The notes beneath the pieces were generated by a model. That model was not told where the DNA came from. It worked only from the letters and a program-made list of their open reading frames with translations, and searched no databases. DNA of 64,000 bases, taken from the NCBI RefSeq assembly GCF_000382325.1, contig NZ_KB908056.1, positions 273,722 through 337,721 on the forward strand, in the 5' to 3' direction. Positions 13,616 through 47,936 of the stretch are shown here, piece after piece; the first letter of the stretch is position 1; the number at the start of each line of letters is the position of its first letter. This DNA comes from Woodsholea maritima DSM 17123 (GTDB lineage: Bacteria > Pseudomonadota > Alphaproteobacteria > Caulobacterales > Maricaulaceae). Position numbers and translations under genes: made by a program.

Positions 13616-15529
13616 CTATCTTCGACCGAAGAGGCGCTCAATATCAGCCAGTTTCAATTCCACATAAGTCGGACGGCCATGATTACACTGACCCGAATGG
13701 GGGGTAGCCTCCATCTCGCGCAACAAGGCATCCATTTCTTGGGCATTCAAGCGCCGACCTGAGCGCACCGAGCCATGACAGGCCATGGTGCCAACCACCT
13801 CTTCCAGCTTTTCTTTAAGCGATAAAGCCTCATCATATTCCGCGATCTCATCGGCCAGATCGCGAATAAGCCCCTGGACGTCCAAACGTCCACCCAAGAG
13901 TGCGGGCACATCACGCACCGCAATCGCGCCCGCGCCAAAGCCTTCAATCACAAGGCCCAATTCGGCAAGCTCATCGGCGCGGCTTAACACCCTTTGCGCC
14001 TCAGCCTCGTCCAGCTCGACAATCTCAGGCACCAGCAAGGCCTGGCGCGAAACCCCGGTTTCGGCCATCTGCTTTTTCATGCGCTCATAGACCAGGCGTT
14101 CATGAGCGGCATGCTGATCGACAATCACCAAGCCATCATGGGTCTGGGCGATCACATAGGTCGAATGCAGCTGCGCACGCGCCAGCCCCAAGGGCCGCCC
14201 CAACGGATCTTCTGCAGGCGCGGGTCCATCATGGACCTCATGATCAAATCCGGCTGTGGGCTCAACCCGGGTCGAGGCGCCATCGATGAAACGCGCCTCC
14301 ACGCCCTCGCCAGCGCCCAAAGCATCTGGGGCCAGCACCTGGTCATAACTGTGTTGAGCCTCGCGCATCTCCGCGCTGGGACGATAGCCACCCCCATAGG
14401 CCGCCGGTCCACGTGATCCCCAAAGCCCGCCGCTGGGCTGTGGGCTCGATCCGGCTTGCACCCGGCCCAAGGTATAATGCGCGACGGTCGTTGAGGCGCG
14501 ATGGCCAGCGCCCGCCAGGGCATGGCGCAACGCCCCGACGATCAAACCGCGCACCAGACCGGAATCGCGAAAGCGGACTTCCGCCTTGGCGGGGTGAACA
14601 TTGACATCGACTTGCGAGGTTGGAAGATCGACATAAAGCGCCACTACGGGATGACGATCACGGGCCAAAAAGTCCTGATAGGCCCCGCGCACCGCGCCCA
14701 CGATCAGCTTATCCTTTACCGGGCGATCATTGACGAACAGATATTGATGCTGGTTCGAGCCGCGATTATAGGTCGGAAGGCTCGCCCAGCCGGTAATGCG
14801 CACGCCCTCGCGCTCTTGATCAATCTCCAGCGCATTCTCACCGAAATCCCCGCCCAGCAACGCCGATAAACGCGCCTTACGCGCCTGGGCCGGGTCTTCA
14901 TGAGTTTCGGCGACAAGAGAGAGGCGTGAACGTCCATCCACCGTAAGGTAAAACCCCACATCCGCGCGCGCCAGCGCCAGGCGCTTCAGCGTGTCGGCAA
15001 TTGCAGTCGATTCAGAGCGTTCCGACTTCAAGAACTTCAACCGTGCGGGCGTCGCATAGAAAAGATCGCGCACTTCAACGCGTGTCCCGCGCCGACCCAA
15101 CGGCGGGGCCGGACGAGGGCCTTCCAAAACGCCGCCCTCCACACTCAGCTGCCAGGCTTCGCCTAAATCTGCGTTCTGAGAGAGGAGTGATAACCGCGCG
15201 ACCGAGCCGATGGAGGGCAAGGCCTCACCACGAAAGCCCATCGTATCAATATGAAGAAGGTCATCCTGGCCATCTTCGCCCACGGGCAGTTTTGACGTCG
15301 CATGACGCTCCACCGCCAGGCGCATCTCATCGCCATCCATGCCGCAGCCATTATCCTCAATCACCAAACGGACTAAACCGCCGCCTTCGGCGCGCACATC
15401 AATGCGAGTGGCCCCGGCATCCAGGGCGTTTTCCACCAATTCTTTCAAGGCGGAGGCAGGGCGTTCAACCACTTCACCGGCAGCGATGCGGTTGACGGTT
15501 TCAGGCGATAATCGACGGATCTTGCTCAT
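13616..15529 (-). CDS. mutL: DNA mismatch repair protein MutL, endonuclease-type
   Basis: MutL couples MutS mismatch recognition to strand removal. The 637-residue product has the GHKL ATPase motifs [17 protein letters not shown] and GFRGEAL, and the C-terminal dimerisation domain. The C-terminal domain carries the metal-dependent nicking motif [12 protein letters not shown], which fits DQHA-x2-E-x4-E, and CNHGRP near the end. It is therefore predicted to nick DNA itself, as in bacteria without MutH. The start at 15529 has gtgagg upstream; an earlier in-frame start (to 15628) would run through the upstream terminator. Confidence 0.95.
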
Positions 15530-15587
15530 GGCCTCACCCTCCCCTCGCGCGGTGAGTCGGTCAAGGCCAGCACGCGGTTCACCCCAG

Positions 15588-15620
15588 CAAAAAACCCGGC
15601 TCAATCGAGCCGGGTTTTTC
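15588..15620 (-). terminator. Rho-independent terminator after the bamF gene
   Basis: On the minus strand a perfect eleven-base-pair stem (aaacccggctc/gagccgggttt) with a four-base loop is followed by tttgc. It ends the leftward ileS-lspA-bamF group about 30 bases after the bamF stop and separates it from mutL. Confidence 0.9.
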
Positions 15621-15650
15621 AATTCCAAAACCGAAGCCTAAGCCTAAGAC

Positions 15651-16190
15651 TTATAGACCAGGCAATTTGCGGCGGTTTTCGCGGCGACGCTCGATCTCAA
15701 CCTGACCACCACCGGTCACGGAATCGATCTGGGCTTGTGCAGCCTCTGGATCAAGCGCATCAGGGCGATCAGCCGGCGGGGCATAGCTGTCATTCTGCCA
15801 GAACAGAACACGATCTGCGAAGGCAGAGCGTTTACGCACCACGGCAGCGGTTTCCCCATCAATCAACTCGCGGATCGAAGGATTGGCCTGAGCGGCACCG
15901 GCGCGAGACGCGAACAGGATTTCCGCATCGGTTGCGGTGCCATCACTAATGCTGCCGAAAAGCGCGCGTTGGGCCTGTTGATCAACGAACACGTCTTCGG
16001 CGCGCAATTCACCCGGACGCGGTGGGCGCAGATTATATTCTGGCGGAACGGACAAAGGCGCGATGGTGACCACGCGGAATTCATCCGGGGTGGTTTTCTC
16101 GGTACCAAGGGCTTGGCGAACACCTGACGTACAGGCGGTTGCCCCCAAAAGGGCCATCAAGGACGTCGCGATGAGGGTGCGGCTGCGCAT
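15651..16190 (-). CDS. bamF: DUF3035 lipoprotein, BamF-type outer-membrane assembly subunit
   Basis: BamF is the alphaproteobacterial lipoprotein subunit of the BAM complex that inserts beta-barrels into the outer membrane. The 179-residue product has a lipoprotein signal ending in GATAC and the BamC-like segment TIAPLSVPPEYNLRPP (about residues 45-60), which defines DUF3035. The rest is low-complexity and Ala/Arg-rich, usual for the family. aaggagcg precedes the start. It follows lspA, whose product would process its signal peptide; both probably share a transcript. Confidence 0.85.
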   Translation of the reverse strand: MRSRTLIATSLMALLGATACTSGVRQALGTEKTTPDEFRVVTIAPLSVPPEYNLRPPRPGELRAEDVFVDQQAQRALFGSISDGTATDAEILFASRAGAAQANPSIRELIDGETAAVVRKRSAFADRVLFWQNDSYAPPADRPDALDPEAAQAQIDSVTGGGQVEIERRRENRRKLPGL

Positions 16191-28583: not shown

Positions 28584-28619
28584 AAAGGGCGGCTCAACCG
28601 AGCCGCCCTTTTTTGTTTT
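28584..28619 (+). terminator. Rho-independent terminator of groESL
   Basis: A stem aagggcggctc/gagccgccctt with a four-base loop is followed by ttttgtttt. It begins 26 bases after the groEL stop. It is symmetric enough to serve also as the end of the converging secreted-protein gene. Confidence 0.92.
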
Positions 28620-29349
28620 ACTGAACCACCTTGGTGTAGCTCACCAAACGTTCCGGCAAGAAATTCATGAACTTATACTGCCAGCCTGCGGGGACCATAA
28701 AGGTGGATGTATCCATATTATATTCCCAGCACCGGGCATCTTCTAAATACTGCTCCGCGCTCATCGCATCTTTTCGGATATAGACTTGAACAACCTGGCC
28801 GCCATTATTGGCGCATAAGCGGGTCATGGAGAAGAGGGTGTCCGTCCCAACGCTCGTCCAAACATTCAAAGCGGTAGGCACATTGGTATTGATCGTCAGC
28901 TCACCTTCATTAGCCCCTGCGGCCACAGCGCCTTCCAAGTCTTCCAGGCGACTTACAAACTCATCCGGTGCCACACCCACGGGGTTTGTCGGTGAATTAA
29001 ACAAAACCCCGCTGGTCCAGGCGCGGTTGAGCACGGCGTTTTGGCCCTGACGCCAGCTCACCGTGGTGCAATCCATCAGATAGAATTGAACCTGAGACTT
29101 CGCCTGAACCGCCATCATCAAAAGGGGAGCAATTGTGGGCAGAAAGTTTGGATTATTAGGGTCTTCCGCCACAAAAACCGGACGGCTGACCCCCGGGCTG
29201 CACTCATTGACGTCATTAAAATTGCCATAAACCAGCAAGCCACCGTTGGAATACTCCACGACCGTGGGCACCGCCCAGCCCGAATACCCATGGGCAAACG
29301 CTGAAGACGAAAAAAGAGCCCAAAGGCCCGCACAGATTAATTGCTTCAT
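28618..29349 (-). CDS. Secreted protein with four cysteines, unknown function
   Basis: The 243-residue product has a signal peptide cut near SSAFAHG. The mature protein has four cysteines (NECSPG, MDCTTVS, RLCANN, ARCWEY), which could make two disulfides in the periplasm, and a strand-rich look with many Asn and Val residues. I recognise no family. The ATG at 29349 follows ggggaga; an upstream in-frame start at 29457 would add an extra hydrophobic stretch and has no ribosome-binding site. Its 3' end meets the groESL terminator. Confidence 0.7.
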   Translation of the reverse strand: MKQLICAGLWALFSSSAFAHGYSGWAVPTVVEYSNGGLLVYGNFNDVNECSPGVSRPVFVAEDPNNPNFLPTIAPLLMMAVQAKSQVQFYLMDCTTVSWRQGQNAVLNRAWTSGVLFNSPTNPVGVAPDEFVSRLEDLEGAVAAGANEGELTINTNVPTALNVWTSVGTDTLFSMTRLCANNGGQVVQVYIRKDAMSAEQYLEDARCWEYNMDTSTFMVPAGWQYKFMNFLPERLVSYTKVVQ

Positions 29350-29499: not shown

Positions 29500-29525
29500 A
29501 TAAAAAAGGCGACCAAATGGTCGCC
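29500..29525 (-). terminator. Rho-independent terminator after the Cys-rich microprotein
   Basis: On the minus strand a stem ggcgacca/tggtcgcc with a two-base loop is followed by ttttttata. It lies about 80 bases past the stop of the small Cys-rich gene. Confidence 0.8.
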
Positions 29526-29603
29526 CCCCCCAATCGACATCCCATTTTATCGGGTTTCAATGGGCTCCAACGCCCCTTCAGGGAGAGGGGTCATCAAAGC
29601 ATC

Positions 29604-29846
29604 TTAATCAGACGGATTAGAGATTGGCGCAAAACCCCGCTTATGAATAAAGGCAATGATAGTGCTGTCACCGCACTCCCTCGCACAGCTCGCCAGGCAA
29701 AGCTGCTTCACGCTAGACCCGGCTGGCAAGGCGTGACAGCTTTGCATGTAACAGGTATGAAAACAGGCTTGGTCATCGGGCTCGCTCGCATGGGCCGTCT
29801 CGATCAAGGCTAAACACGATAGGCTTGTGGCTAACATAAATCGCAT
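29604..29846 (-). CDS. Secreted microprotein with twin CX3CX3C motifs
   Basis: The 80-residue product has a signal peptide (cut near AHAS), leaving a mature peptide of about 58 residues with six cysteines in two clusters, CFHTCYMQSC and CLASCAREC, about 13 residues apart. Each cluster is CX3CX3C, so pairing would bring two short helices together. The mature part has no membrane segment. A strong ribosome-binding site (ggagg) precedes the ATG. It has its own terminator, so it is probably monocistronic. I do not recognise a family; a metal-binding or disulfide-rich periplasmic peptide is an inference. Confidence 0.65.
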   Translation of the reverse strand: MRFMLATSLSCLALIETAHASEPDDQACFHTCYMQSCHALPAGSSVKQLCLASCARECGDSTIIAFIHKRGFAPISNPSD

Positions 29847-29911
29847 TGTGGCCTCCCAAATGATGCAATTTACGCCAAAAAGTCGAACGCTCGCTTTCAT
29901 TCGTGACGACA

Positions 29912-29941
29912 TAAAAAAAAGGCGGCCCAATGGACCGCCTT
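29912..29941 (-). terminator. Rho-independent terminator of the large TonB receptor gene
   Basis: On the minus strand a stem aggcggtcca/tgggccgcct (one G-T wobble) is followed by eight T. It lies 28 bases past the receptor stop. Confidence 0.85.
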
Positions 29942-29968: not shown

Positions 29969-32900
29969 TTAGAAGTGCTTAGTCACGTTCAAGAAGAACG
30001 TCCGACCACGCAAGTCGTATCCGACACCGCGAATGGGAGACCCATTGTTGTTTGTCAGATCTGGCGCTTCATCAAAGACGTTGCTGATACCACCACGCAT
30101 GATCCAGTCACCCATGTCATAACGCGCTGACATGTCGTGTACCCAGTAATCGCCTGCGTCGTCGTAAGACCAGCATTCGGCTTCGCCAGCTTGAACACAT
30201 GGGTTCAGGCCAGAGGTAACTTCGTCGATTGGATCATCATTGGCTTCAATGAAGTTATCAACAAAGCGAGATTGGAAAATGAAGCTCATATCTTTGTAAG
30301 ACAGAACGTTGGTGTAGCTCAGGCGCCAGCGTGGGTTCCCGAACTCACCCAGATCGTCATTAATCTGCGTGCCTTCAGCAAGATATTCTTCTTCGGTTTG
30401 GCTCAGCATGTAGGTTGAACGGAAGATACCGCGATACCCAATTTCACGCTCAGTCCAAGGCGTATTAAAATCAAAGTCGAGTTCGAAGTTGTAATCGATC
30501 CCTTCAGAGATTTGCTCGCCCAAGTTTTGGTTCAAGGCTTCAACGAATGACACCTCACCAGTCGATGGGTCACGTTGGATGAACGCACACTGCGGGTCGT
30601 TCAAGCTTGGTGAATTATAGCACCGCCCAACAATGGTTGCAGCTGTCAACGCATCAACTTCGTCTTTCACAGCAATGTGGAAGTAAGTCGATGAGAACTG
30701 GAAGCCGAAGCTATCAAACCATGGCTGTTGGAAAACAATACCACCTGTGAAAGCGTCAGAGGTTTCTGCGCCCAATTCTGGGTTCGAACCGCTGGCCACT
30801 TGGGTGGTTGCGCCCAAGAAGACTGGGCTTGATGTTCCAAGACCTTCTACGCCAAGGCTGGTTGGATCATTGCCCGGCAGATTGAAGGCACCGCCCCCAT
30901 TGCGACAATTGGCCAGCAAGGTCGGATCGCGCGTATCCAGTGCAGGATTGTACAAACGCACTTCTGGGGTTGATGGATCATTGTCATGATCGACGAATGG
31001 CACCGCAATACCTGGAACGCGGCAAGGATCGCTTGGGTCTGCGAAGCCCGTTACACGCCCGCCGAATTGCTCACCCAGGTTAGGCGCGCGGAAAGACGTG
31101 CCATAGGTGGTGCGGAAACGCAGCCAATCGGTCGGTGCATAAGTCGCCTGGATACGATAGGTCCAGTGTGCACCAAAGTTCTCTTCCTCAGTCCAGCGTG
31201 TGGCCAAGTTCAAAGACAGCTCATCCGCGAAAGGACGGTCGTGCAACAAGGTTGCCTCAACCTCAGCAAACGCTTCCATCAAAGAACGAGAGCCGTTCGA
31301 ACCTGGATCGCCGAAGAAACCTTCGAAATCACCGCTCGCGGTTGCCGCATCGGTTTCGGTGCGGATAGACTCATCGCGGTATTCGAAACCCAAAACGCCG
31401 CTGACAGGGCCATCAGGAAGGTTGAACAAATCACCAGAAATAAAGCCGTTGAAGATCGCCTGATCAACATAGGTGTTGGTGATACGGTTCGGCAGGAAGT
31501 ATTCATTGTCCGCCTGATCCGCAAAACGACCTGTGGTGATGAATGTCTGATCGAAGAAGTTCAATGGGCGACAGGTTGAAACAACAGATGTGCCGATTGA
31601 ATCACACACGATATTGCCGCTACCATCGTCATGCGTATTAGACATAACTTGGTTGAAGCGTGACTTCAGGTAGTAACCATTTACGCGGTCAAAACCCTCA
31701 GAGCGGCTGAAGCTACCGTAAACATCGTAGTTGAAGTTGTTGAAGCTTGGCAGCAAGCGATCAACGAAAGGCAAGTCACCTTTCAAACCACCGATCAAGC
31801 GGGTTTGAGAGACTTCGGTGAAGTTCTCAGCACGGTTCAGGAAGTACAAAGTACCTGCTGCTGGGCCTGCCGCATTTTCAAATGGGTTGTACGCATAGTC
31901 AGCGGTAAACTTGATGTTACCTTGACCAAAGCGCGTGGTTTCGCTGCGACGACGCGTGTGAGACGCTTCGTAGTAAGCGGTCATGTTTGGCGCAAGCTCA
32001 AATTCACCCACAGAATAAAGCGAAAGACGCTCAAGGTCAGGCGTGAAGCTAGACTGCAGCTCTTCGGGATGCAACAGCAGCAAACGACCATTTTCGCTTG
32101 TCGGCAACAACAGATCTGGCGTTACGTCGATACTAACCCAATCAGCGGGCAACAGACCAGACGCAGCCGTACCTGGAACCAGGCCAACATAGCCTACGCC
32201 ATTCACGCTGGCCGAACCAGCACCGAATGAACCAGCACAGGTTTCGTAGATTTTACCGCTTGTACCTTGGGTGTAGCTTGATTGACAGATCCCAGAATAA
32301 GGCTCGTAGAAGCTACCAAACTCGCCACGGGTGTGACCGTCGGTTTTGTTATACTCAAGCGCAAAGGCCATAAAGCCATTGTCAAAATCTTTACCGTAGG
32401 TCGCAGAGGCAATGTATTGCCCGTTATTACCGTCCATTTGCGGGAAAGTTTGATTGAAATCAATGGTGAAGCCATCGAAATCGGTACGAAGAACGTAGTT
32501 TACAACACCCGCAACCGCGTCAGAACCGTAAACAGAAGACGCCCCGTCCAAAAGCACATCAACACGTTGGATCAAAGAGCCCGGGATCATGTTCAAGTCT
32601 GGTGCAGAAGGCGCGCCACGTACACCCGCAGGTGCCAGGCGACGACCATTAACCAGAACCAAAGTCCGGCCCGCATCCAAACCGCGAAGACCCGCAGTCG
32701 CAGACCCAGGACCGTTATCAGACAGCAAGCCCGCGGATGTAGATACACCCGTGGTGATCTGCTGACCTTGAACAACTGTTGTTTGATTGAGCAGCGCCGA
32801 TGCATCGATCAAACCCAAATCACGACCAAATTCACCGTCAATGGTCTGAATTGGAGACATAGCTGAAAATTCGTTACGACGAATGCGCGAGCCCGTTACG

Positions 32901-33097
32901 ACGATTTTGTCGCCTTCTTGAACGTTGCTTTCTTGAGACTGTTCAGATTGATCTTGAAGCTGCACAACGGCAGGATCATTTCCCTCTTGCGCTGAAGCAT
33001 TTGCTTGCGCAAAACTTGCGCCTGCAAACAACACAACAGCCGCACTACTTAACAGTGTGCTACCTACCAGGGTATCACGTAGTTTTTTTCTTGACAT
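29969..33097 (-). CDS. TonB-dependent outer-membrane receptor
   Basis: The 1042-residue product is a 22-strand barrel type receptor. A signal peptide is followed by a plug domain with IVVTGSRIRR (about residue 65), the plug motif LVLVNGRRLAP and VYGSDAVAGVVNYV. The C-terminal strand ends LNVTKHF, the usual aromatic terminus for BAM recognition. Many TBDRs of this form in Caulobacterales import sugars, peptides or aromatic compounds rather than iron; the ligand cannot be read here. aagggga precedes the ATG. No regulator or transporter is next to it, and a 633-base AT-rich gap lies upstream. Confidence 0.93.
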   Translation of the reverse strand: MSRKKLRDTLVGSTLLSSAAVVLFAGASFAQANASAQEGNDPAVVQLQDQSEQSQESNVQEGDKIVVTGSRIRRNEFSAMSPIQTIDGEFGRDLGLIDASALLNQTTVVQGQQITTGVSTSAGLLSDNGPGSATAGLRGLDAGRTLVLVNGRRLAPAGVRGAPSAPDLNMIPGSLIQRVDVLLDGASSVYGSDAVAGVVNYVLRTDFDGFTIDFNQTFPQMDGNNGQYIASATYGKDFDNGFMAFALEYNKTDGHTRGEFGSFYEPYSGICQSSYTQGTSGKIYETCAGSFGAGSASVNGVGYVGLVPGTAASGLLPADWVSIDVTPDLLLPTSENGRLLLLHPEELQSSFTPDLERLSLYSVGEFELAPNMTAYYEASHTRRRSETTRFGQGNIKFTADYAYNPFENAAGPAAGTLYFLNRAENFTEVSQTRLIGGLKGDLPFVDRLLPSFNNFNYDVYGSFSRSEGFDRVNGYYLKSRFNQVMSNTHDDGSGNIVCDSIGTSVVSTCRPLNFFDQTFITTGRFADQADNEYFLPNRITNTYVDQAIFNGFISGDLFNLPDGPVSGVLGFEYRDESIRTETDAATASGDFEGFFGDPGSNGSRSLMEAFAEVEATLLHDRPFADELSLNLATRWTEEENFGAHWTYRIQATYAPTDWLRFRTTYGTSFRAPNLGEQFGGRVTGFADPSDPCRVPGIAVPFVDHDNDPSTPEVRLYNPALDTRDPTLLANCRNGGGAFNLPGNDPTSLGVEGLGTSSPVFLGATTQVASGSNPELGAETSDAFTGGIVFQQPWFDSFGFQFSSTYFHIAVKDEVDALTAATIVGRCYNSPSLNDPQCAFIQRDPSTGEVSFVEALNQNLGEQISEGIDYNFELDFDFNTPWTEREIGYRGIFRSTYMLSQTEEEYLAEGTQINDDLGEFGNPRWRLSYTNVLSYKDMSFIFQSRFVDNFIEANDDPIDEVTSGLNPCVQAGEAECWSYDDAGDYWVHDMSARYDMGDWIMRGGISNVFDEAPDLTNNNGSPIRGVGYDLRGRTFFLNVTKHF

Positions 33098-36593: not shown

Positions 36594-37079
36594 ATGCGCG
36601 CGATTGTGACGCTGACTTTAGGACTGGCGCTTGGCCTTGCCGCTTTCAGCACTCCGCGCGCTCACGCCCAATGGGGGAGCGCAATGGAAGATCTCGCCCC
36701 TCTCACCGAACGCTTAGACGTAGAAGCCCGCAGCCGTGCACAGCGCCTCGCGCCCACCGCGATCGCCCCGGCCATCCCCCTTGAAAGCGAAGATGGCTTC
36801 ATCCTCGACGTGGAAGACTTTGTTTTAAAAGCCCTTCAGCTGAGCCACGCCATCGAAGCTCAGGGCGGCCCACAAGATTTGGCCTGCATCTTTCGGGGCA
36901 TGTCGGGGGATGCGAATACGCGCCTGGAGGCCTTACTGAACGCGCAAACCCGCGGCGATCAGGCGCGCTTTTATCTCGACTATGCCGACCTTTTCGAGGT
37001 CGCCCATGAGATCACGTCCGACCCCGAAAACCAGCCTGAAACCAGCGTCTTTTCCAGCTGCCCTGCGCCAGAGCTTTAA
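36594..37079 (+). CDS. Secreted protein of unknown function
   Basis: The 161-residue product has a signal peptide (cut near RAHAQ) and a mostly helical mature part with two cysteines (DLACIFRG and FSSCPAP), likely a disulfide. I recognise no family. The ATG at 36594 follows tagga; an earlier start would precede the signal peptide. Its last four bases overlap the stop of the convergent DsbD-family gene. Only 110 bases separate it from the divergent hisS start. Confidence 0.65.
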   Translation: MRAIVTLTLGLALGLAAFSTPRAHAQWGSAMEDLAPLTERLDVEARSRAQRLAPTAIAPAIPLESEDGFILDVEDFVLKALQLSHAIEAQGGPQDLACIFRGMSGDANTRLEALLNAQTRGDQARFYLDYADLFEVAHEITSDPENQPETSVFSSCPAPEL

Positions 37080-39208
37080 CGCGCGCGCTCAATCGCCGCT
37101 AAAACCAAATCCTGGGTCAAGAGCGCCGGCAAAATTTCTGCCTCACCACCATCAGCCGGATAAATGACATAAAGCGGTACACCGGCTGCGCCATACTGCT
37201 CCAATGCTGCAGCGATCTGTGGGTCTTGATTGGTGAAATCCGCCCTGAGGAGCGCGACATTCGCCTCAGCAAAGGCCGTCTTGACCGCATCCGTCGACAA
37301 CACCGTCAACTTGTTCACCTGACAATTCACACACCAGGCGGCGGTAAAGTCGATGAAGACCGCGCGGCCCTCAGCGCGCAGATCGCTAACCTTTTCCGGC
37401 GACCAGGCTTGATAGCCTTCCTCAATCGGGCTGGTCGTAGCTGGCTCTAAGCGGGAGGTCAGGCCAATCCCAGCGATCAGGCCCAGTAAAGCCAGCACCG
37501 CCAATACTCGCGCCACCACACCCTTAAATCGGAAGAGCCAGATCATCAGGGCCGCGCCCAGGAAGAGCGCCAGGATCAACAACGTACCGCTGGCCCCCGT
37601 CTGAACGCTCAACACCCAGGCCAGCCAAATCGCGGTGGCAAACATCGGGAAGGCCAGCGCTTGACGTAAGACCACCATCCACGCGCCAGGCTTGGGCAAA
37701 GCCGCCAAGAGCTGCGGCACGAAGCTGACGATCACAAAGGGCAGCGCCAATCCCACGCCCAGGAATAAGAAGATGATCAGCGAGGCCCAGATCGGTTGGG
37801 TCAGCGCATACACCAGGGCCCCGGTCATAATCGGCGCCACGCATGGGGCCGCGACAAAGACCGCCAGCACGCCGGTCAGGAATGATCCGCCCCGGCCAGA
37901 ACCTGACTGGCTCTGCCCGACACCTTGTAAGGAGGTGCCAATTTCAAAGAAGCCTAAGAAATTTAACCCGATGAGGAAGATCAGAACGCTTAAAGCCGCG
38001 ACCACGACGGGGATTTGCAATTGAAACCCCCAAAGGCCCGGTAAGCCCATAGCCCTTAAGCCCAAAAGGCCCGCCCCCAGGACCAAAAATGTTGTGATCA
38101 CCCCAGCCCCAAAGAGCAGACCTAAAGTGCGTGCCTCAGAACGCTCAGCATGGCCTTTATGAAGCAGGTTCAACGCCTTCATGGAGAGGATGGGGAAGAC
38201 ACATGGCATCAGATTGAGGATCAAACCGCCCAGCAGCGCAAAAAAGGCCGCTTGCAACAGCGTCAAACCCGCCGCATTTTGATCTTGAGATTTCACCCAT
38301 TGCACTGAGGTCTCCGGCGACGTGCTTTCAACCTCCGCCGTGGTGGCAATGCCATCGAGCAGCGGCAGAGCATCGCCTAGAGTGGGGCTTAACGCGTAGG
38401 CTTTTCGACTACCGTCTGCAAAGCTTTGGATCAAAACTCCGCCATAGGCCTGATCCAGCGCGCCAGACACCTTCCAGCCGGGTTGCAGATGAAGCTGAAG
38501 CCCCTGTTCAGAGACCCCAACGCCCTGAGCCGCATCATGGGTAATAATCCCGGCTTCATAAGGGAAAAACACGGTTTCAACCGCGCGTGCGTTATCATCC
38601 GCCAGTGCCGGGTCGGCGACCGACAAGATGATCTTGCCCGCACGCCAGCTCATCGTGGTGGGAGCGGTCAACGCCTGCGGGGTCTTGTCGAGAAACCGGA
38701 TGATGAGATCAGCGTCCGGGCTCGCCACACGGGTCTCATCAATCAGAAGACTTAGACTGACATCGCTTTGTTCGGGGATACAAATCTCCTCACAAACCAG
38801 CCAATAGGCCTTGCCGGTGATCGTGATCGGCCCCAAGGGCGCGTCCATAGGGATGGTGAGGGTCTGGCTTAAGACAACCTCATCAGAATAGCCATAGTTG
38901 GTCAGCGGTCCCAGATCATAAGCCTTAGGCGTCGGCCAGACCCAATCAGAAACATGATACCCCTCCGGCAGATCCAGGCTCTGACGGGTCGGCTCCCCAC
39001 TATCTCCGGGATTGATCCAATAGGTATGCCAACCGGGCTCAATACGTTGATGCAGCGCGATCTGGATCTCATCACCGGGGCGCGCGCGCGTCACATCAGA
39101 GATTAAGCGCGCTTCAACCTTGGGGTCTGAATTCCAACTGCCTTGGGCGTGCGCGATCCCTGAGGCGCAAAACAGCGTTGAAATTAAGGCGAACACTCGA
39201 AAAAGCAT
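37076..39208 (-). CDS. DsbD-family thiol:disulfide reductase (ScsB-like)
   Basis: The 710-residue protein carries electrons from cytoplasmic thioredoxin to periplasmic thiols. A signal peptide is followed by a DsbD alpha-like periplasmic domain with the pair CEEIC (about residue 147), an eight-helix membrane core with the redox cysteines NLMPCVFPI and AAPCVAPIM, and a C-terminal thioredoxin-like domain with AWCVNC (about 630). All three domains keep their cysteines, so it should be active. The long N-terminal domain suggests the ScsB-like group over classic DsbD. ggggaa precedes the ATG. Confidence 0.88.
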   Translation of the reverse strand: MLFRVFALISTLFCASGIAHAQGSWNSDPKVEARLISDVTRARPGDEIQIALHQRIEPGWHTYWINPGDSGEPTRQSLDLPEGYHVSDWVWPTPKAYDLGPLTNYGYSDEVVLSQTLTIPMDAPLGPITITGKAYWLVCEEICIPEQSDVSLSLLIDETRVASPDADLIIRFLDKTPQALTAPTTMSWRAGKIILSVADPALADDNARAVETVFFPYEAGIITHDAAQGVGVSEQGLQLHLQPGWKVSGALDQAYGGVLIQSFADGSRKAYALSPTLGDALPLLDGIATTAEVESTSPETSVQWVKSQDQNAAGLTLLQAAFFALLGGLILNLMPCVFPILSMKALNLLHKGHAERSEARTLGLLFGAGVITTFLVLGAGLLGLRAMGLPGLWGFQLQIPVVVAALSVLIFLIGLNFLGFFEIGTSLQGVGQSQSGSGRGGSFLTGVLAVFVAAPCVAPIMTGALVYALTQPIWASLIIFLFLGVGLALPFVIVSFVPQLLAALPKPGAWMVVLRQALAFPMFATAIWLAWVLSVQTGASGTLLILALFLGAALMIWLFRFKGVVARVLAVLALLGLIAGIGLTSRLEPATTSPIEEGYQAWSPEKVSDLRAEGRAVFIDFTAAWCVNCQVNKLTVLSTDAVKTAFAEANVALLRADFTNQDPQIAAALEQYGAAGVPLYVIYPADGGEAEILPALLTQDLVLAAIERAR

Positions 39209-41120: not shown

Positions 41121-43316
41121 TTAGAATGCCTTACGCACAGACACCCGCACGGACCGGCCCTGCGCTGGCAAATGATCCTTCAAATAAGAGGTATGAAAGC
41201 GCACCTCTTCATCGGTGATATTGCGCACCCCCAGGGTCAATGCCAGCGAGTCTAGGCTTTCGGGGCGCCATTCGACATCCCCATTGAGAAGCACATAGCC
41301 ATCGGTGGGCAGCTCATTCGTCGCGGTTTCATCCTGCTCGGCCACAAATTGCGCATCTGCACGCCAAGACAAGCTCTCATTAACCAGCTCCAAGCCGGTT
41401 TTCAGGCTCAAAGGTGAGATGCGCGGCAGATTTCCGCCCTGATCCAACTCGCCGCGCACATAGTCGAGCCCGGCATGGGCCAAGATGTCATAGCCAAAGG
41501 CTTGACCCAGCTGGGTATTGGCCGCCAGCTCAAAGCCATAGAGGCGCGCATCTGCTTGGGTGTACTGATATACATCCAAGCCATCGCGGGTCTCACCGCT
41601 CGCCATTAAGGTGATGAAGCCATCATAATCGGCATAGAATACATTGGCTTCGGCATGAAGATTATCATGATCGTAGCGGAGCGTGCCTTCCAGAGACCAG
41701 GCTTTTTCCGTGTCGAGATTGAGATCACCGATTTCAAAGGCGCGCGTCGCCAAGTGAGCCCCTTCTGCGAACACTTCAACGTCTGTGGGCGCACGCTCCG
41801 AACGTGACACGGTCACACTGGTGAAGAGGTCAGGGTGCGGGCGCGCGAACAAAGATCCCGAAGCCGAAAAGGCGGTATAGGTGTCTTCTTTACGCAGACC
41901 ATTCAAGCGGCGACGTTCCAACCGGGCCCCAGCTTCAAAGCCCCAAGCCTCACGGTCAAACCGCTCCAGCGCGAACAGGCCCCAATCCTGGGTCGTTACC
42001 GGCTCGATATAGGCTTCCTCGCCTTCGGCCTTGAAATCCTTAGTCAGAGCCTGAAGCCCCCAGGCCCCTTGCCAATTGCCGCCATGATCATGGCTAACTT
42101 CAACGCGGCCCTCAAAGCCTTCATTATAGAAGGTGGTGGCTATCTCATCACCTTCGCGTTCTTTGTGCTCATAATCAGAATAGGCGCCTGACCAACGCAC
42201 CCGGTTGATAAACCCATCAAGACGCACTTCACCACGCACATCAATGCGGGTCTGATCCATCACCAGACGCGGATCCGCGTGTTCATGCTCATGTTCATGA
42301 TCATCATCGTGATCGTCGTCGTGATCGTGATCGTGGTCGTGATCGTGATTCTCATCTTCATGAGCGTGCTCATGTCCAGGAAGACCATATTCCGCATCCG
42401 TGACTTTCACAGCCAAACCGACAAAGCCCCAGTTTTGAATATAGGAGACGCCACCCGAATAGGTTTTAAACAGGAAGTCTGAATTCTCGACATGATCGCG
42501 AGCGAATTCCTCTTCATGGTCATGGTCATGATCGTGGTCATGATCGTGGTCATCATCGTGGTCGTGATCGTGATCGTGATCATGATCATGATCATCATGC
42601 TCGCCCTCTTCCAGAGCGCGTTGACGCGCTGAATCGGCAAAGCCGGGTATGTCATAGACACCCGCTTCGCGGCGCTGACCCTCCAGCGTAAAGGCGAAAT
42701 CGCCCGCCCCTACAATCACCCGGCCCGCCAGCTGGTTGCCGTCATCCACGCTGGTATAGCCGCCATAAACCTCACCCGAGAACGGAGCCTCTGGGCGCTC
42801 TTCAACGATGCGGCCATCCATAATATTGACCACGCCGCCAATAGCGCCGCCGCCATAGGCAATGGCCGAGGCCCCACGCAGCACCTCAATTTGCGACGCA
42901 CTGAGTGTTTCCGCCGCGATCGCATGATCCGGGCTTGCCGCGGAGGCATCAAGCGAGCCCACCCCATTAACCAGAACCCGAACCCGATCTGCGCCCAGGC
43001 CCCGAATGACGGGTCGCCCGGCCGCCGGACCAAAAAAGGTATTGGTCACGCCAGGAATATTGGCTAAAGCCTCACCCAGATTGCCCGCCCCCAGGCGCTG
43101 AATCTCTTCATCATTTAAAATACTCGCCGCGCCGACCACATCATGGTCATGCACATTCAAAGGCGAGGATTTGACGATGATCACATCAATGTCGTGATCA
43201 TGGGCCTCTTGAGCCTCTTGGACCTGTTGAGCATGGGCAGAGGTCGCCGCACTCAGCGCCAGGGCGCTGGCCGCAAGGCAAAGGAGTGACCGTCTTTTAT
43301 CGTTAAACCGTAGCAT
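41121..43316 (-). CDS. znuD: TonB-dependent receptor of the zinc receptor ZnuD type
   Basis: The 731-residue product is an outer-membrane receptor that probably takes up zinc. It has a signal peptide, a plug domain (PVIRGLGADRVRVLVNG, VLRGASAIAYGG) and a barrel ending RVSVRKAF. Two long His/Asp runs lie in predicted outside loops (about residues 239-270 and 314-346), with shorter HDHD patches near the N-terminus. Such loops bind Zn. It lies divergent from a Zur-type regulator, and an AT-rich imperfect inverted repeat sits between them, so zinc limitation should induce it. No iron-siderophore genes are adjacent. Confidence 0.88.
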   Translation of the reverse strand: MLRFNDKRRSLLCLAASALALSAATSAHAQQVQEAQEAHDHDIDVIIVKSSPLNVHDHDVVGAASILNDEEIQRLGAGNLGEALANIPGVTNTFFGPAAGRPVIRGLGADRVRVLVNGVGSLDASAASPDHAIAAETLSASQIEVLRGASAIAYGGGAIGGVVNIMDGRIVEERPEAPFSGEVYGGYTSVDDGNQLAGRVIVGAGDFAFTLEGQRREAGVYDIPGFADSARQRALEEGEHDDHDHDHDHDHDHDDDHDHDHDHDHDHEEEFARDHVENSDFLFKTYSGGVSYIQNWGFVGLAVKVTDAEYGLPGHEHAHEDENHDHDHDHDHDDDHDDDHEHEHEHADPRLVMDQTRIDVRGEVRLDGFINRVRWSGAYSDYEHKEREGDEIATTFYNEGFEGRVEVSHDHGGNWQGAWGLQALTKDFKAEGEEAYIEPVTTQDWGLFALERFDREAWGFEAGARLERRRLNGLRKEDTYTAFSASGSLFARPHPDLFTSVTVSRSERAPTDVEVFAEGAHLATRAFEIGDLNLDTEKAWSLEGTLRYDHDNLHAEANVFYADYDGFITLMASGETRDGLDVYQYTQADARLYGFELAANTQLGQAFGYDILAHAGLDYVRGELDQGGNLPRISPLSLKTGLELVNESLSWRADAQFVAEQDETATNELPTDGYVLLNGDVEWRPESLDSLALTLGVRNITDEEVRFHTSYLKDHLPAQGRSVRVSVRKAF
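42278..42376 (-). repeat. His/Asp-coding repeat block 2
   Basis: A run of near-identical CAT/CAC and GAT/GAC/GAG codons on the minus strand encodes HDHDHDHD-type sequence (about residues 314-346 of the zinc receptor). It is coding repeat, not CRISPR. Confidence 0.9.
42512..42600 (-). repeat. His/Asp-coding repeat block 1
   Basis: A six-base-period run of His and Asp codons on the minus strand encodes about 30 alternating residues (about 239-270 of the zinc receptor). The period makes it prone to in-frame length change. Confidence 0.9.
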
Positions 43317-46772: not shown

Positions 46773-47936
46773 ATGGGCTCTGATTCTTCATTCACCGCGT
46801 TAGAATTTTTTGCCGGCGCAGGCATGGCCCATTTCGGGCTAGCCCCGCACTGGCGCGTCATATTTGCCAATGATTATGACGAGAAAAAGACACGCTGTTA
46901 TCAAAGTAATTTTTCTTCACCCTCGCCCCTAACGCGAGACGTGCACAGCCTAAGCCTCAATGATCTGCCTACAGAATTTGCAGATCTTGCCTGGGCCAGC
47001 TTCCCATGTCAGGACTTATCGCTGGCCGGGGCGCGCGGCGGGCTGCAAGCCCAGCGCTCCTCAGCGTTCTTTGGCTTTTGGAGTGTGATGGAGGCGCTAC
47101 GCCAAGATCACCGCGCGCCACATATTTTGGTGCTGGAAAATGTCAAAGGCCTGCTGACCTCTCACCAGGGCCAAGACTTTACGCTCTTATGCCATCTCTT
47201 GGCCAAGTCCGGATATCGCTTTGGCGCGCTGGAGCTGGATGCCAAAGCCTTCCTGCCGCAATCACGCCCGCGCCTGTTCATCATCGCCTGCAGGGCCGAT
47301 ACACCCCTGCCCTCATCCTTCCTGGCCTTAGGCGAAGGCGATCATTATGGGCTGACCCCCGCCATTTACACCGCGCGCGATCGCCTAGGCGCGAGCCATG
47401 GTGTGCGCTGGATCGACTGGCATCTACCCACCCCACCCGCACGCATGGCGAGCCTTGATCAGATCATTGACCCCAGCCTTACCTGGCATAGCGCTGATCA
47501 ACGCCAGGCCCTGTTGAGTTTGATGAATGACACTCACCGTCAAAAGGTCGAAGCCGCACACGCGCGCGCGCGCCTAACAGGAAAGCCTCAGATCGGCTTT
47601 ATCGTGCGCCGGACCCGTCAAGAACAGGGCAAACGCCAACAACGCGCCGAAGTGCGCTTTGACGGCCTATCGGGGTGTTTGCGCACGCCCGGCGGGGGAT
47701 CATCGCGGCAATTTGTGATCTGGTGTGAGGGCCAGAGCATCGAAACCCGGCCCATGGCGGCGCGTGAGGCCGCGCGTTTGATGGGTCTGCCCGGTAGTTT
47801 TCAGCTACCCACCACGACCGGCGCGGCGCTCCATGTCATCGGGGATGGATTGTGCGTGCCCGTCGTCAGCTGGCTTGATACCCATCTGTTAACGCCGCTG
47901 GCCCAGCATTTGAAAGCCAGCACAGAGGCGGCTTAA
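46773..47936 (+). CDS. Orphan DNA (cytosine-5) methyltransferase
   Basis: The 387-residue product has the C5 methyltransferase motifs in order: motif I FFAGAGMAHFG, motif IV with the catalytic Cys in SFPCQDLSLAG, motif VI ENVKG, motif VIII QSRPRLFI, and motif X near VIGDGLCVPV. The target recognition region lies between about residues 190 and 310. No restriction endonuclease, Vsr or other defence gene is adjacent, so it looks like a solitary methyltransferase. It is divergent from the lipoprotein gene and convergent with a LysR gene (5-base gap). Confidence 0.92.
   Translation: MGSDSSFTALEFFAGAGMAHFGLAPHWRVIFANDYDEKKTRCYQSNFSSPSPLTRDVHSLSLNDLPTEFADLAWASFPCQDLSLAGARGGLQAQRSSAFFGFWSVMEALRQDHRAPHILVLENVKGLLTSHQGQDFTLLCHLLAKSGYRFGALELDAKAFLPQSRPRLFIIACRADTPLPSSFLALGEGDHYGLTPAIYTARDRLGASHGVRWIDWHLPTPPARMASLDQIIDPSLTWHSADQRQALLSLMNDTHRQKVEAAHARARLTGKPQIGFIVRRTRQEQGKRQQRAEVRFDGLSGCLRTPGGGSSRQFVIWCEGQSIETRPMAAREAARLMGLPGSFQLPTTTGAALHVIGDGLCVPVVSWLDTHLLTPLAQHLKASTEAA

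Follow-up and report, generated by a model that had tools for sequence, protein, structure and literature searches.

The alpha-hairpinins have been described as a family of plant peptides; they are secreted helix-loop-helix molecules, such as nigellin-1.1 (PDB 2nb2), in which each helix carries three cysteines spaced about three residues apart and disulfides run between the helices. The motif of the 6C alpha-hairpinins has been given as CX3CX3C-x4-20-CX3CX3C (PMC11591084). In bacteria, CX3C motifs on alpha-helices are found in the copper storage proteins Csp1 and Csp3; in the Csp proteins such motifs bind Cu(I) (PMC5171941). The E. coli heat-stable enterotoxin STII (STb) is exported by Sec, oxidised by Dsb and then exported from the periplasm by MacAB-TolC, the peptide substrates of MacB being commonly small and disulfide-bonded (PMC5985334), and STb is composed of two antiparallel helices joined by two disulfides (PMC8878840).

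The peptide considered here is encoded in a 64,000-nucleotide stretch of the Woodsholea maritima DSM 17123 genome, referred to as the window, and reads MRFMLATSLSCLALIETAHA (signal peptide) followed by SEPDDQACFHTCYMQSCHALPAGSSVKQLCLASCARECGDSTIIAFIHKRGFAPISNPSD (mature part); the features of the locus are collected in Table 1. As read from the sequence, the signal peptide is of a plausible Sec type, ending AHA|S, and a seventh cysteine, C11, sits inside it. The full layout of the remaining cysteines is C28-x3-C32-x4-C37-x12-C50-x3-C54-x3-C58, a spacing of 3-4-12-3-3. An earlier note on this DNA had described two CX3CX3C clusters in a mature peptide of about 58 residues; the six mature cysteines, the second cluster and the short mature peptide all stand, but the first cluster is CX3CX4C and the length is nearer 60. 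Two histidines, H30 and H38, lie near the cysteines, and the peptide is acidic with a net charge of -2.

Table 1. Features of the microprotein locus and its immediate neighbours (window coordinates).
Feature	Coordinates	Strand	Basis or remark
Microprotein CDS, 80 aa (P0001)	29604..29846	-	ORF call; probable single-gene unit between terminators
Shine-Dalgarno GGGAGG of the microprotein gene	29852..29857	-	Five bases before ATG
Predicted Sec signal peptide MRFMLATSLSCLALIETAHA	29787..29846	-	Read from sequence, AXA site
Mature part (60 residues), predicted to be a helical hairpin	29607..29786	-	AlphaFold2, single sequence
Cysteine cluster 1, C28-x3-C32-x4-C37, helix 1	29736..29765	-	Sequence and AlphaFold2 model
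Cysteine cluster 2, C50-x3-C54-x3-C58, helix 2	29673..29699	-	Sequence and AlphaFold2 model
Terminator-like hairpin and T-run after the microprotein gene	29501..29532	-	Fold -18.8 kcal/mol, z -5.6
Terminator of the TonB-receptor gene lying upstream	29919..29941	-	Terminator scan and fold; separates receptor from microprotein
TonB-dependent receptor, upstream neighbour, separate unit	29969..33097	-	Pfam PF00593, PF07715
Orphan secreted 243-aa protein, downstream neighbour	28618..29349	-	Without Pfam match

Strong translation signals and a terminator of its own had also been ascribed to the gene, and both were borne out by the Shine-Dalgarno sequence and by the stable hairpin with its T-run; the latter comes from the folding calculation and is missing from the list produced by the simple terminator scan. 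As the gene is flanked by this terminator-like hairpin on one side and by the terminator of the TonB-receptor gene on the other, it is probably a single-gene transcription unit. No match to a sigma-70-type promoter was found in the short gap upstream.

Structure prediction, which had been proposed as a check, gave a helix-loop-helix with each cysteine cluster lying within one of the two helices. The AlphaFold2 model of the single mature sequence has helices at mature residues 2-17, 25-38 and 41-49 and a mean pLDDT of 74; its first four ten-residue blocks reach 77-91, with a core of about 84-91. Mature cysteines 8, 12 and 17 lie in helix 1 of this model and 30, 34 and 38 in helix 2. Since the positions 8 and 38, 12 and 34, and 17 and 30 give near-constant sums in the predicted hairpin, an antiparallel ladder of C28-C58, C32-C54 and C37-C50 (mature 8-38, 12-34 and 17-30) is proposed, and would be geometrically natural. 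A Foldseek search with the model returned nothing significant.

Judged on the predicted model, the nearest architecture is that of the plant 6C alpha-hairpinins and not that of the small Tim proteins, because the former have a defined 6C motif and supply the sole fold matches of a better-modelled sister peptide (below). The window peptide shares with the alpha-hairpinins, in the AlphaFold2 prediction, the helix-loop-helix with cysteines in both helices, and the same pairing between the helices is proposed for it. It departs from them in having CX3CX4C in helix 1, which takes it outside the exact motif, 12 residues between the clusters and an extra C-terminal segment; moreover it is bacterial and acidic, and no sequence similarity extends beyond the cysteines.

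No match to the window peptide was found in Pfam, NCBIfam, PHROGs, PADLOC or PDB sequences, including, at the NCBIfam cut-off of 50 bits, the Cys-Xaa-Xaa-Xaa repeat radical-SAM target peptides of TIGR04117. The statement in the earlier note that no described bacterial family has this pattern thus agrees with Pfam, NCBIfam, GTDB, PHROGs and PDB sequences, and the known bacteriocin, toxin or metal-binding family that would have spoken against it did not appear in Pfam, NCBIfam, PHROGs or PADLOC, nor did any described defence or phage protein family. Sequence homologues were likewise not found in 61 relatives, 398 genomes of the order, GTDB, viral contigs and plasmids, a set in which the genus itself is represented by no other species; weak matches at E 0.003-0.5 were dismissed, being without the cysteine pattern. 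Within its own genome, a profile (A6) in which the window peptide is itself one row retrieved the window peptide alone.

These results raise the alternative that the ORF arose by chance or is very young, and is not a selected gene, its cysteine layout being an after-the-fact coincidence. Six cysteines scattered over 60 residues give this layout in 1.25e-5 of placements, or in 9e-4 of random placements under a loose definition of the spacing, both figures referring to a layout defined post hoc. Searched as DNA, the entire 3.1-Mb genome contains the cysteine pattern four times, and of these occurrences only the window ORF reads as a small secreted ORF. Its reading frame has the top coding score of the six; its overall codon score lies below 98.8% of real-gene pieces and is exceeded by 21% of spurious ORFs, and its synonymous codon score, from which amino-acid composition is removed, exceeds that of 90% of the spurious ORFs but is itself exceeded by 93% of the real-gene pieces. 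The codon usage of the microprotein is intermediate and the coding evidence moderate. A chance or recent origin would be in keeping with the weak overall codon score, the missing homologues and promoter match, and a position beside the orthologous TonB receptor which is not conserved, but it has to contend with a strong Shine-Dalgarno sequence, an export signal with an AHA site, a terminator belonging to the gene, the best-scoring of six frames, a hairpin predicted with fair confidence from a single sequence, a cysteine layout which chance would give at 1e-5 to 1e-3, and the recurrence of that layout in secreted peptides of relatives. On this evidence the ORF is probably a real gene, and we regard a chance origin as rather unlikely.

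A search for the cysteine pattern, of the kind that the earlier note had suggested, covered 137 genomes of the taxonomic family and led to about ten secreted peptides of this architecture in relatives. They came to light first in one genus (g8), then, in a follow-up search with one of its peptides, in two further genera (g14 and g5); a class-wide search with one sister peptide, over an even sample holding few close genera, gave no matches. A search with a permease profile placed the group in a Maricaulis MAG, Glycocaulis albus, and Oceanicaulis and Hyphobacterium MAGs, all Maricaulaceae, as well as in a Caulobacteraceae MAG, and added the peptides of L105 (CX3CX3C-x15-CX3CX3C), L128 (x19) and L106. 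The peptide loci are L103/L080, L104/L082, L110/L081, L107/L099, L100, L101, L105/L126, L128 and L106, and the gene order recurs: the cysteine peptide is followed by a secreted protein of ~200-240 aa without a Pfam match, a MacA-like (HlyD-type) adaptor, an ABC ATPase and a MacB_PCD/FtsX permease. The peptide is present in eight of the nine distinct complete operons with a readable upstream side (L080, L081, L082, L099, L100, L106, L126, L127 and L128) and absent in one (L127, genome G126); a tenth locus, L101, has the peptide and the second gene before the contig ends. In the Caulobacteraceae MAG the operon is headed by two tandem hairpin peptides with signal peptides and the spacing CX7CX3C-x12-CX3CX5C (L106:4463-4915). 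Genome G102 (L139/L198) keeps the peptide beside an apparent operon remnant (L198:7345-8134), in which the ORF after the peptide seems to join the first part of the operon's secreted protein to a permease-like C-terminus, as though the operon had decayed by internal deletion. As far as the databases and literature searched show, this operon-encoded set of peptides is undescribed.

The cysteine spacings of the sister peptides vary (e.g., 3-3-15-3-3, 3-3-19-3-3 and 4-3-13-3-3), and several, such as the L105 peptide with 3-3-15-3-3, have the exact 6C alpha-hairpinin motif. When the mature parts of twelve peptides, one of them the window peptide, were aligned as input for modelling, the L105 peptide gave a helical hairpin with a pLDDT of 93.8, of which helices 2-14 and 21-35 contain all six cysteines. 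Only two PDB folds were matched by this model, nigellin-1.1 and the walnut vicilin hairpin (E 6.2 and 6.7, TM 0.56-0.70), and these matches are non-significant alone; the best PDB sequence matches to a profile of the bacterial peptides were mostly alpha-hairpinins, at E 0.04-0.4. Two sister peptides score 12-14 bits against TIGR04117, compared with its 50-bit cut-off. All of the operon peptides are acidic, with net charges of -2 to -7 when the window peptide is included, and this charge sets them apart from typical cationic lytic peptides. In the best model, drawn by analogy, the operon peptides would be exported by Sec, oxidised by Dsb and released by the encoded MacAB-like pump through an outer-membrane duct.

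Several further observations concern these and other loci. In two genomes dsbB and coq7 adjoin the peptide operon (L080:8295-9361 and L082:6563-7629), an adjacency which may be functional for disulfide formation or may be ordinary synteny. Weak profile matches in the middle of L140 and L141 are secreted peptides with twin CX7C-like spacing, that is, the same hairpin geometry minus the middle cysteine. A probable lipoprotein (L196:1312-1983) carries CX6CX3C-x13-CX3CX6C in its N-terminal part, which may represent a hairpin module in a different taxonomic family of the order.

The window peptide has the layout of the operon peptides, being a short secreted peptide with three plus three cysteines at x3-x4 spacing, and so belongs to the set by architecture; by sequence it does not. 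The operon-peptide profile has no match in the genome of the window peptide at E <= 1, and a profile of the mature parts built without the window peptide scores it at 4.7 bits, a value that is also attained with 31 of 4287 decoy ORFs and, when the sequence is fully shuffled, in 3.5% of cases. The same score is reached by 55% of the shuffles which keep its cysteines in place, and it follows that the window peptide shares nothing beyond the cysteines with the operon peptides. No operon-type MacB-like permease was found in its genome at E <= 1e-60, and its neighbours are other genes than those of the operons, which encode a secreted protein, a HlyD-type adaptor, an ABC ATPase and a MacB/FtsX permease. 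Given the profile miss, the score of 4.7 bits, the missing permease and the unrelated neighbour, the window peptide is described as working like the family without being a member of it.

A second alternative is that it is a strongly diverged and displaced operon peptide of the Maricaulaceae, which once stood beside a MacAB-like exporter and is now alone. The two share a taxonomic family, an export signal and cysteine layout, and acidity (net -2 against -2 to -7), and the remnant in G102 shows that a decaying operon can retain its peptide; nevertheless the profile misses the window peptide, the likeness is no greater than the cysteines, the genome has no operon of this type, and the secreted protein encoded downstream shows no relationship to the product of the operon's second gene. 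We consider such a displacement unlikely.

In its way of working, the window peptide may be compared with STII/STb, as a Sec-exported helical-hairpin peptide oxidised in the periplasm, with export by MacAB-TolC corresponding to what is proposed for the sister peptides; STII/STb has two disulfides and another cysteine layout, and no homology is claimed. By the reading preferred here, the peptide would be exported by Sec and cleaved after AHA, as its sequence suggests, and its cysteines would then be oxidised in the periplasm by Dsb, pairing as the modelled antiparallel ladder. These two steps, export and an oxidised hairpin, are the core claim, which we think is somewhat favoured. A tripartite pump could next carry it across the outer membrane, by analogy with the sister peptides, whose operons encode a MacAB-type exporter, and with STII/STb of E. 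coli, and the peptide might then have an extracellular role, in antagonism or in signalling, as a molecule stable to proteases. As the window peptide has no exporter beside it, both of the latter steps are extrapolations, release by a MacAB-type pump being doubtful and extracellular action more doubtful still. Taken as a whole, an orphan, exported, Dsb-oxidised, disulfide-laddered alpha-hairpinin-like peptide is the best reading, to which we give about even credence.

Metal binding as in the Csp proteins is the main functional rival to this reading: at least two hairpins of a periplasmic peptide would pack into a cysteine-lined bundle for Cu(I) or another soft metal. That Csp helices use CX3C motifs as Cu(I) sites (PMC5171941) lends this some appeal, as do the nearby histidines H30 and H38 and a charge which is acidic and not that of a cationic lytic peptide. 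The Csp proteins, however, are four-helix bundles, Tat-exported or cytosolic, whose 13-19 cysteines are kept reduced, whereas the window peptide has six mature cysteines in one predicted hairpin, a Sec-type signal which leads to an oxidising compartment, no match in Pfam or NCBIfam and no copper gene adjoining it; we find metal binding quite improbable. That the peptide assembles in the periplasm as a bacterial equivalent of the small Tim chaperones of mitochondria, there to escort the neighbouring TonB receptor and other membrane proteins, is hardly credible, and the earlier comparison with these proteins, twin CX3C helical hairpins of an intermembrane compartment, is not the closest: the predicted hairpin with CX3C on each arm, the outer-membrane protein next door and the sixth place of Tim9/Tim10 in a fold search without significant matches are outweighed by three cysteines per arm where small Tims have two, a transcription unit separate from the receptor, the lack of the peptide beside orthologous receptors and a Tim match of only E 7.2 and TM 0.30, and homology was rejected on that match and the lack of one among PDB sequences.

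To our knowledge, the natural substrates of MacB-type exporters are largely unknown, and the operon peptides would give these exporters a genetically linked candidate cargo. Bacterial peptides that head a MacAB-like operon and have the alpha-hairpinin cysteine architecture would also suggest an independent bacterial origin of the stapled-hairpin scaffold. On its own the window peptide is one orphan, whose importance lies mostly in having led to the operon-encoded set. It is conceivable, if unlikely as a whole, that the Maricaulaceae and their relatives make alpha-hairpinin-like, fast-diverging, Dsb-oxidised stapled hairpins for use against or between cells, let out by a MacAB-type exporter of their own, with the window peptide as a lone extreme member.

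The genes around the microprotein were also considered. Nine orthologues of the TonB receptor were found in sister genera at 54-60% identity, seven or eight of them with a readable downstream side, and a link between receptor and microprotein was rejected, there being no such peptide downstream of the readable orthologues. The secreted 243-aa protein was rejected as an equivalent of the second gene of the sister operons (hhalign probability 0.1); it has one weak relative, in G149, among the 137 family genomes, and this relative (L102:7120-10713 and 15316-16069) belongs to a group of ~115-aa secreted proteins arranged in tandem near type IV pilus-like assembly genes. Elsewhere in the window, a thiol:disulfide interchange protein resembling DsbD, which includes a thioredoxin-like domain (37076-39208), is encoded ~7 kb from the microprotein, a further TonB-dependent receptor (41121-43316) has long His/Asp-rich loops, possibly for zinc, and a C5 cytosine DNA methylase (46773-47936) appears to be solitary.
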